Source: Spiroplasma endosymbiont of Aspidapion aeneum
GTDB lineage: Bacteria > Bacillota_I > Bacilli_A > Mycoplasmatales > Mycoplasmataceae
Direction of reading: 5' to 3'
Assembly: GCF_964031045.1 (NCBI RefSeq)
Contig: NZ_OZ034994.1
Span: 496,001 to 560,000, forward strand
DNA: 64,000 bases
Position 1 is the stretch's first letter. Every line of letters begins with the position of its first letter. The translations under genes were made by a program, and so were the position numbers. A model generated the notes under the pieces. The model was not told the DNA's origin. It saw only the letters and a program-made list of their open reading frames with translations, and ran no database searches. This document shows positions 33,196-38,446 of the stretch, piece by piece.

Positions 33196-34299
33196 ATGAT
33201 AAATAGAAAAAAAGATATACCTGATTCAACCGTTGATATAATAAATACTATTAACAATCAAAAATATACATTTTATTATAACTCATTTTTCGGTGGTGAT
33301 GCTAGTAATGGTAATATACTTCCAGAGGATATTGGTCCATGTGATGCTTTTATAAGTAAAAATGCATCTAATCGTGCTATCCAAGTAGGTAATGATTGAA
33401 ATTCTTTACTTGAAAATTTGGAATTTGGTGATGGATATAGTTTTACTGGGTCTAATTTAATAGAGTTTAAAAATCAGAATACTGTTTTTAAAACAAACAT
33501 TACATTTGATGGAGATTTAGACGCTTCTTGTCAATCGATAATTAAATTTGAAAGCGGTATTTTGTATAATGGGACTGTTGAATTTAAAGGAAATGTTAAC
33601 TTTAAACCACTCTCTTCTAGCAAAAATACTGGATGTGCGGTTATTAACAATATTTCCTCTGAATATAATGAAAAAAACTATTCAGCAGTTACACCTTTAA
33701 ATAAAGTTATTTTTGATAAAAATGGCAATATAACAGCAAAACAAGATTATACCTCATCAAAACCAATTGGTCTATTGGCAATGGGCAGAAATTCATATAT
33801 TGGCGATGTTGAGGTTAAAGGTGACTTAACAATCAATGTCAATGATCTAAATCATGTTATAGTTGCTGCTGGTGTTGTTATTGGTGACAATAATGACACT
33901 AAAAATGGTACAGAAAGTTTTGGTAATATTGATATAGATGGAAAAACAAGTATAATTTATGGTTCTAAAGCACAAAGATCATCGATAATATGAGACAAAA
34001 ACTCTTTATATGCACCAAATTCTACAATAACATTACACGATGTTAATATTAGTGGTGATTCAGAATTTAATTTTATTTTTGAGGATGGTAACTCATCAAT
34101 TTGGTCAAATAGTATTGGTTTAAAAAATCTAGATATAAAAGGGGATGTTACTGATAAATCAGACTTTGAAAGCAAAGCAATTTATTGAAGAACTAATATA
34201 ACCAATATTATCAACCTTTCAGTTACTTATAATAAAAAATCAGCAAAAATTCAATATCAACTACCTTCATCTACATTTAACTATGTCCCATTGGGATAA
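33196..34299 (+). CDS. Beta-rich surface-type protein without signal peptide, probably 5'-truncated
   Basis: 367 residues rich in Gly, Asn, Ser and Ile. Repeated strand-turn patterns (ITFDGDLDAS, TVEFKGNVNF, DVEVKGDLTINVND, GNIDIDGKTSIIYG, LDIKGDVTD) resemble a beta-helix or adhesin passenger. An in-frame TAA immediately precedes ATG 33196, there is no RBS, and the N-terminus (MINRKKDIPDST) is not a signal. A protein of this composition should be exported, so the 5' end has probably been lost next to the IS-rich region. Two Trp are TGA. Family not recognised. Confidence 0.6.
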
Positions 34300-34607: not shown

Positions 34608-34616
34608 TGATATAAT
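34608..34616 (+). promoter_or_regulatory. Extended -10 promoter of the miaA leader
   Basis: TG-A-TATAAT (-10 at 34611-34616) predicts a start near 34623. TTGACC at 34583-34588 is 22 nt away, too far for a regular -35. Confidence 0.6.
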
Positions 34617-34622
34617 AATATT

Positions 34623-34741
34623 GTCCTTAGGGATATTTGATTAATTGTTTAATCTTTTGTTTGCATGAGTGTTTAAAACCCGCTTTATAAATTAATATTT
34701 CCGATCTCATGCAATTCATAGCGGGTGGGAATATTTTTTTA
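34623..34741 (+). promoter_or_regulatory. Structured RNA leader with interlocked helices and terminator upstream of miaA
   Basis: After a small hairpin (GATTAA/TTAATC, 34639-34654) three helices are possible. A is 34661-34669 with 34706-34714 (9 bp). B is 34678-34684 with 34720-34726 (7 bp). C is 34694-34702 with 34727-34735 (9 bp, one G-U), running into TTTTT (34736-34740), so C is an intrinsic terminator. The order A-B-C-A'-B'-C' makes A and B an H-type pseudoknot, incompatible with C. This is a riboswitch or attenuator layout. It does not match a riboswitch class I can name; alternatively it is a small RNA with its own terminator. 420 bp upstream (34300-34620) hold no gene. Confidence 0.5.
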
Positions 34742-34766: not shown

Positions 34767-35672
34767 ATGACAAAAATTATTGCAATTGTAGGTCCAACGG
34801 CTAGTGGTAAAACAAAGTTATCAATTGAAATTGCAAAAAGGTATAACGGTCAATGTGTTAATTTTGATTCCACACAATTATTTTCTGGAACAGATATTGC
34901 AACTAACAAAATAACCGATAGCGAAAAAGATGGCATAGTCCACCACATGCTATCTGTTAAAAAAGTTAATCAAACAATTGACGTGGTTGAATATCGCAAC
35001 ATAACAAGAGAAATAATTAATAAACTTTTAAATAAAAAAATATCCCCAATACTTGTTGGTGGAACCGGATATTATCTTTTGGGTGTAGTTAAAAACTACA
35101 CATTTTTTGGTTGTAAAAGAAAAGAAGATATTTCAAAACAATTTTCAAAGTTAAACCAAAAAGAAGTTAACGAACTTCTTTTCGAAGATCTTTTAATAAA
35201 AGGAACTGATAATAAAAGAATCTTGCGAAAATACCAACTAAAACAAGAAGTAGATATGTCAAAAATTAACTTTCAACAAGAAGAAGAGTACATTTATAAA
35301 AACCTTGTTATCATTGGTTTAAATCCAGATAGAGAAAAACTTTATCAAAGAATAAATGATAGGGTTTTAGAACTAGTAAAAATTGGTCTATTTGACGAAA
35401 TAAAAAAAGCATATCTTGATAATGATAAAAATAAAGATGCTCAAGCATTAAAATGTATTGGGGGAAAAGAAATTATTGCTTATTTGAATAATCAACTAAG
35501 TTATGAAGATGCTATCACTGCGATGCAAAAAAATAATCGAAATTATGCAAAGAGACAAATAACATATTTTAAAAATAAATTCCAAGATAAAATAAAATGA
35601 TTCAATCACCAATTTTTAGATATTGATAGGGTATATGCAGATATTTTCTCTTATATTGATTCATTAGATTAG
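34767..35672 (+). CDS. miaA: tRNA dimethylallyltransferase
   Basis: 301 residues. Transfers dimethylallyl from DMAPP to A37 of tRNAs reading U-initial codons. P-loop GPTASGKT (residues 8-15), then NFDSTQLFSGTDIATNK, HHMLSV and VGGTGYYL, and later QALKCIGGKEI and RNYAKRQITYFKNKF. These are the family's ordered motifs. The start is taken as ATG 34767 (AAAAAGAAGCG upstream), not the in-frame ATG inside the leader near 34725. Two C-terminal TGA are Trp. Length is typical. Confidence 0.97.
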
Positions 35673-37745: not shown

Positions 37746-37945
37746 ATTTTATTATAATAGGATAAATAAAGCATTATTATTGTAATTTTTATAAAAATAA
37801 TCTATAATTGTAATAAGAAAGCATATCAAAAAGCTGGATAAGCTGTATATACTTTTCAAATATATATTATTGACAAAAATTGCATATTAAGCATTTTATG
37901 GTGTATAAATATATAAAGCTCAAAAAACAAAGGAGAGTAATAAAA

Positions 37946-38446
37946 ATGGCTCAAAAAGTTCAAAATACAAAGGTTAAAAAAAATCCAAATGGAACAGAAA
38001 AACCAGATAAAATTGATGGAGGAATGTTAGTAAACATTTCTTCAACCCAAGAAAAATTTCTTTGAGATAAAGCGGAACCAATTTCATCTGCAAATCAAAC
38101 AATTTGAAGAAAGGATGTTGCTGGTGCAATAATCAAAAACTCAGAACAAGGATTAAAATCTGAATTTGGTTGACAATTTACTTTAATTGACCCCGAAGGT
38201 CCAAACAATGATGTAAATAATGTTTGTGCAATGCATTGAAAAAATGCAGAAGTTTTACGTAAACACAATCAGCCATGAATAGCAACAGTAACTGGTAGCA
38301 CTAATGCTAAAGAGATGTATAACTATTTAAAGGAATCTCGTGTTCCTGGTGATCAGTTATCAAAACTAAGAAAAACTGTTTTGTTCCAATCGTCTCGTGT
38401 TTATCCTAAAAAAATTAATACATTTATTAGAAAAGACCCTAAATAA
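37946..38446 (+). CDS. Conserved small protein, function unknown
   Basis: A 166-residue soluble, basic protein starting MAQKVQNTKVKKNPNGTEK. It needs TGA as Trp in several conserved-looking places (EKFLWDKAEP, QTIWRKDVAG, EFGWQFTLIDPEG, AMHWKNAEVLRKHNQPW). RBS AAAGGAGAG. It is single-gene, with a TTGACA-like element upstream (37870-37875) and a strong terminator after it. I do not recognise the family; a small, well-expressed cytoplasmic protein is a fair description. Confidence 0.8.

Follow-up and report, generated by a model that had tools for sequence, protein, structure and literature searches.

The window, by which we mean the whole stretch of 64,000 nucleotides analysed from the Spiroplasma endosymbiont of Aspidapion aeneum, carries a structured RNA element of about 115 bases directly 5' of miaA (34767-35672, + strand), which encodes the tRNA dimethylallyltransferase (Pfam PF01715 IPPT, E = 1.7e-51, with TGA read as Trp). 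The order after miaA is truB, a ribF-like FAD synthetase gene and an rpsO-like gene. The genome (G000) is a single contig of 1.21 Mb and holds no further full copy of the RNA. Directly 5' of the RNA, a 367-aa protein with no Pfam match is encoded (33196-34299); the genomes of the genera g8 and g7 have other genes at this place. Another protein with no Pfam match (137-201 aa; window 37880-38446; L096 3014-3427; L023 1680-2285, strand -) is encoded after rpsO in the window, about 3 kb from the RNA, and its gene is the immediate 5' neighbour of the RNA in G005, on the G224 contig and, as judged by eye, in g8. The ancestral order may have been rpsO, this protein gene, the RNA and miaA.

Architecture of the element

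All parts of the element lie on the + strand, and the conserved block exceeds the pseudoknot, since it also includes a -10 box and two hairpins. The -10 box TATAAT (34611-34616), or a close match to it, is found 6-7 nt 5' of the first hairpin in nearly all copies. This hairpin, P1 (34623-34634; GTCC/GGAT), was defined by the alignment and RNAalifold; its tetraloop is TTAG in the window and of the UUCG or GNRA type in many relatives. The second hairpin, P2 (34639-34654; GATTAA/TTAATC), was assigned because relatives keep it despite other sequence, such as AAGAATA/TATTCTT and ACGTT/AACGT. The pseudoknot core of about 75 nt (34661-34735) then follows with the strand order A-B-C-A'-B'-C'. Helix A pairs TTGCATGAG (34661-34669) with CTCATGCAA (34706-34714) in 9 bp that are Watson-Crick throughout; helix B pairs ACCCGCT (34678-34684) with AGCGGGT (34720-34726) in 7 bp; and helix C pairs AATATTTCC (34694-34702) with GGGAATATT (34727-34735) in 9 bp, including one G-U. 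The B-to-C linker (34685-34693; (T)ATAAAT) is conserved and mostly invariant, and measures 9 nt in all copies but one; it was modelled as unpaired, and nested folds suggest a possible pairing with the U-tract. The junction from C to A' is 3 nt long in 42 of 42 copies. A U-tract of 7 Ts (34734-34740), which includes the last two bases of C', ends the element, and 26 nt separate it from the miaA ATG.

The three pairings and their order, as given in the preliminary description of this DNA, were confirmed. With fixed-length helices, a 9/7/9 set in this order occurred in none of 4000 dinucleotide shuffles and in none of 1059 other 119-nt windows across the 64 kb, and the weaker 7/7/7 set in 2 of 4000 shuffles. 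The nested folding energy of the element is ordinary (z = -1.09), so the signal is the interlocked order and not the energy. Chance pairing within AT-rich DNA would agree with such an energy; however, it is contradicted by the shuffles, by the conservation boundaries and by the covariation described below, and this reading is already refuted, with practically no probability left to it.

The helices had also been described as partly mutually exclusive. The six strands are disjoint, no base being common to two helices, and there is no competition for bases; mutual exclusion is thus an assumption on sterics that the pairing itself does not support. A and B had been proposed to form an H-type pseudoknot; the more classical H-type pair is A with C, connected by the 3-nt junction, with B pairing their two large loops. 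A coarse rigid-helix model (A-form geometry, linkers limited to 6.3 angstrom per step, sterics treated with beads) accommodated the three helices simultaneously, with every linker and steric limit respected. Placements were found for the lengths of G000, g8, g7 and g9 types, and an over-tight control failed. The model suggests that simultaneous formation is sterically possible, which speaks to feasibility and not to occurrence. Across nine genomes, a simple duplex calculation put each of A, B and C at about -7 to -13 kcal/mol, the exception being helix B of G024 (-2.6 kcal/mol).

Conservation and covariation in relatives

The covariance model detected the RNA in 41 of 320 genomes of the order. 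It is present in all genomes of the genera g1, g4, g5, g7, g8 and g9, which belong to one family, and on one contig of G224; no further genomes with the RNA were found by the model among 395 sampled from the class. The copy number is one per genome and two in G014 after a duplication, giving 42 copies in total. The second G014 copy (L098; G014:C1:648500-656000) is followed by a broken miaA, seen as a two-piece protein match with a stop, about 11 kb from the intact pair. In the 20 genomes of the family's remaining genera the RNA model gave only noise and the protein search no miaA match, and the IPPT family had no match in the 6 of these genomes that were tested. The only copy outside the family (L096; G224:C22) may be a contaminant from a Spiroplasma, since its sequence is g7-like, its contig measures just 4.7 kb and the assembly is 85% complete. 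A pattern search revealed no exact viral matches in the set searched, from which near relatives were possibly omitted.

In a DNA search of 60 family genomes, the element was located 5' of miaA in nearly all g8 and g9 members and in g4, with 74-84% DNA identity to relatives, whereas the MiaA proteins are 43-50% identical. In the best genomes, 82-84% DNA identity of the RNA stands against 46-50% protein identity of MiaA.

A fixed-field structural alignment took in all 42 copies (39 distinct sequences). Among the distinct sequences, canonical pairing in register was 100% for A (8 core pairs), 99% for B (5-bp core) and 99% for C (9 pairs). When one strand was slid by 1-3 positions, pairing dropped to 17-65%, 27-69% and 48-68%, respectively. 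The 39 sequences hold 40 double-change cells in A and 55 in C, counts from which shared ancestry is incompletely removed. In 30 distinct cores, A and C beat 1000 of 1000 column shuffles in both pairing and double changes. Column covariation ranked over the whole alignment is dominated by the deep split between g7 and g8; therefore, register slides and changes within and between genera were used.

For example, helix A reads TGCGTGAG/CTCATGCA in g8, TGTGTAAG/CTTATACA in g9, TGTGTGGA/TTCATACA in G004 and TGTTTGGG/CCCAGACA in some g7 genomes, and helix C, AATATTTCC/GGGAATATT in the window, reads AATGCTTCT/GGGGGCATT in g9, AGCGCTTCC/GGGGGCGTT in G004 and AATAACTCT/AGGGTTATT in g7. P1 shows a double change from C-G to G-C in g9. 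Helix B is nearly invariant, and double changes in it are confined to one case each in G000, G005 and G045; with so few variable columns, its covariation support appears thin. The B core is broken in two copies, G024 (A.A) and G224 (A.C), and helix C of G224 is weakened as well. The compensatory changes on which the preliminary proposal had been made to depend are thus present in relatives, richly in A and C and with little variation in B.

The L-type order ABCABC is therefore represented here by three ordered helices that each covary, although thinly for B. This order has been enumerated as the 'pseudotrefoil' (PMC3390330), and the L-type pseudoknot was termed rare in the structure-prediction literature (PMC11203014). 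The element resembles these pseudoknots in its strand order and its three real helices; what differs from the literature cases is that covariation in a natural RNA family backs the order, with the coexistence of the helices as our own inference. It is a real RNA family, confined to this clade and seemingly new, whose three interlocked helices co-evolve.

Boundaries, 3' ends and the link to miaA

The column identity in g8 is 0.89-0.96 from P1 through the U-tract and falls to 0-0.65 immediately 3' of it, and it is low and uneven directly 5' of the -10 box. The g7 values are 0.93-1.00 between the -10 box and C'. The RNA is more conserved than the neighbouring coding sequence, including the start of miaA. 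Conservation thus ends at the element's own promoter-like sequence and 3' end, as is expected of a stand-alone RNA; the RNA is predicted to have its own promoter, and its transcription start is expected near 34622-34623.

The preliminary description of C as an intrinsic terminator was borne out in part. Helix C and the U-tract together resemble a terminator at the 3' end of the RNA in the window as well as in g8, g9, g4 and g5, whereas g7 keeps a covarying C without a U-tract after C'. A separate terminator hairpin lies between the RNA and miaA in g7, most often about 36 nt after C', and has nothing in common with A, B or C. Its energy is -6 to -11 kcal/mol in most of the genomes folded and weaker in G024 (-4.5). 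These observations indicate that C is kept as a helix in its own right, beyond any part in termination. Ten g8 and g9 genomes (G036, G044, G035, G027, G029, G030, G032 and G047-G049) contain an almost pure A/U hairpin of 16-22 bp, in which the U-tract serves as the 5' arm and the 3' arm is placed a little 5' of the miaA start or ribosome-binding site. Its sequence varies but the hairpin recurs, and it might be a processing site. The 3' end is therefore solved differently by lineage, with a long T-run, the AU hairpin or a separate terminator, while the core is unchanged.

As the preliminary description had it, the element precedes miaA, and it does so in 39 of the 42 copies. The spacer from the U-tract to the start is about 16-26 nt in G031, G046 and the window, which leaves no room for another promoter, so transcription of miaA has to pass through the element in these genomes. 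In g7, a candidate promoter-like sequence is visible by eye 5' of miaA. The exceptions to adjacency are G005, G024 and G224. In G005 the RNA runs directly into tRNA-Gly(TCC), the gene next after miaA in g9 and beyond miaA in G004, and no IPPT match was found in the genome; miaA was thus apparently excised and the RNA kept. The bases after the RNA in G005, an 85%-complete assembly, resemble a leftover ribosome site and start codon, which suggests that the loss was perhaps recent and that the RNA has perhaps persisted there only briefly. In G024 the RNA is located 47 kb from miaA, 5' of a thymidylate synthase-like gene, and in G224 an unrelated gene follows it. The RNA is thus kept independently of one downstream gene, and the expectation that a purely free-standing occurrence would speak against the preliminary proposal applies in part, with 3 of 42 copies free-standing and the g7 RNA apparently a separate unit.

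Both copies with a broken B core (G024 and G224) belong to the three that are not next to miaA, and no copy adjacent to miaA (39) shows such a break, an association of 3/861 = 0.0035 in a hypergeometric calculation done by hand that ignores ancestry. This suggests relaxed constraint after parting from miaA and, as a hint, keeps a role in cis alive.

A probable stand-alone RNA and its alternatives

The reading we favour, and consider reasonably probable, is a stand-alone small non-coding RNA that is genomically linked to miaA in Spiroplasma-like mollicutes, a placement of these genomes that draws on genetic code, genome sizes and gene content. It is directly supported by the conservation, by the helix covariation (thin for B), by the boundaries and by the independence from miaA in several lineages. 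What speaks against it is that miaA adjoins 39 of the 42 copies and that the family members without the RNA also have no detectable miaA; the joint absence could be explained by one loss in a common ancestor.

The preliminary description had taken the element for a riboswitch or attenuator. What remains of this is a pseudoknotted RNA before miaA that is conserved, covaries and has a 3' end resembling a terminator; as a riboswitch of miaA it was not upheld, for there are no base-sharing helices and no visible family-wide antiterminator, and the RNA persists in genomes that have lost miaA, carry it elsewhere or do not have it after the RNA. As a cis attenuator, an A and B pseudoknot stabilised by a ligand or by tRNA status would hinder C and let the polymerase pass, and otherwise C with the U-tract would terminate. 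The adjacency to miaA, the read-through forced by the short spacers, the placement of A' and B' inside the loop of C, the U-tract that closes C in most genera, and the loss of B only in copies away from miaA all agree with this mechanism. However, its supposed alternative helices share no bases, the partners of C or C' suggested by single-sequence folds are not conserved across genera, and a conserved expression platform is not found, since g7 has an independent terminator in place of the U-tract. The RNA is also kept without an adjacent miaA in G005, G024 and G224, and the literature searched shows no regulation of miaA by such a leader. We therefore regard an attenuator as rather unlikely. 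Transcription-attenuating riboswitches and leaders share with the element a common plan of promoter, structured RNA, terminator-like helix with U-tract, and metabolic gene; the element differs in that it has no base-sharing antiterminator, is separable from the gene, keeps C without the U-tract in g7 and matches no Rfam model. A dual role, in which a stable small RNA also tunes miaA and, in some species, the long AU hairpin acts as a site for RNase III or for RNA stability, is improbable: the hairpin before the miaA start in ten genomes (z of about -2 to -5 against mononucleotide shuffles, a weak control) speaks for it, whereas it is absent from window-type, short-leader and g7 genomes, and A/T-rich hairpins arise easily.

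Rfam 15 gave no match for the element, either at the gathering score over the whole window or at E up to 10 for the element, nor within the elements of five relatives up to E 5. A T-box leader, and a 6S or SRP RNA at this locus, were rejected in the absence of Rfam model matches. T-box leaders, like the element, are 5' leaders of tRNA-related genes in Firmicutes relatives; however, the GGGTGG-like stretch of the element belongs to C' and immediately precedes the Ts instead of being part of an antiterminator, and no Stem I was seen. A diverged housekeeping RNA (6S, SRP, RNase P RNA or tmRNA) would fit a single-copy, highly conserved element, and the 6S model had no match in five of these genomes, which leaves an empty slot. 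6S RNA is likewise a single-copy stand-alone bacterial RNA, but it is a long bulged hairpin unlike the pseudoknotted core found here, and SRP RNA was found elsewhere in the genome; with the comparison to RNase P RNA and tmRNA covering the window and the elements of the five relatives, this origin is very improbable. The MCS series of Mycoplasma capricolum comprises small stable RNAs of a related mollicute, to which the element is comparable in kind; in the 20 family members with no detectable miaA, the RNA model gave nothing above noise. Nothing relevant was found in the literature on Spiroplasma or miaA-leader RNAs and mollicute MCS RNAs.

For the stand-alone RNA, the mechanism may be outlined as follows. 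We infer that the element is transcribed as two 5' hairpins and a compact core, in which A, B and C would be interlocked as an L-type pseudoknot, A and C forming the H-type pair with its constant junction and B joining the two large loops. During transcription, A' would meet A, then B' would meet B, and C' would finally close C, after which the U-tract would stop RNA polymerase in many lineages. In this scheme miaA would be a long-standing downstream neighbour, transcribed by read-through where the spacer is short and probably from its own promoter in g7. The folded RNA, recognised by a protein or ligand, would exert its effect in trans; antisense pairing is the less likely mode, since the RNA has no long conserved unpaired stretch besides the 9-nt A/U linker. 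That the three helices form at once, as a covariation-supported L-type fold acting in trans as a Spiroplasma structured RNA, is a tentative proposal that we hold at somewhat less than even confidence.

To our knowledge, few structured RNAs are known from mollicutes, whose genomes are otherwise stripped. The RNA is previously uncatalogued, with no paper describing it in the literature searched and no Rfam match. Its conservation exceeds that of the adjoining coding sequence, and its strand order is one that structure-prediction work counts among the rare ones. Its core of about 75 nt is a concrete test case for a three-way interlocked fold, and the linkage of a small RNA to a tRNA-modification gene, and its separation from it, can be traced over some 40 genomes.
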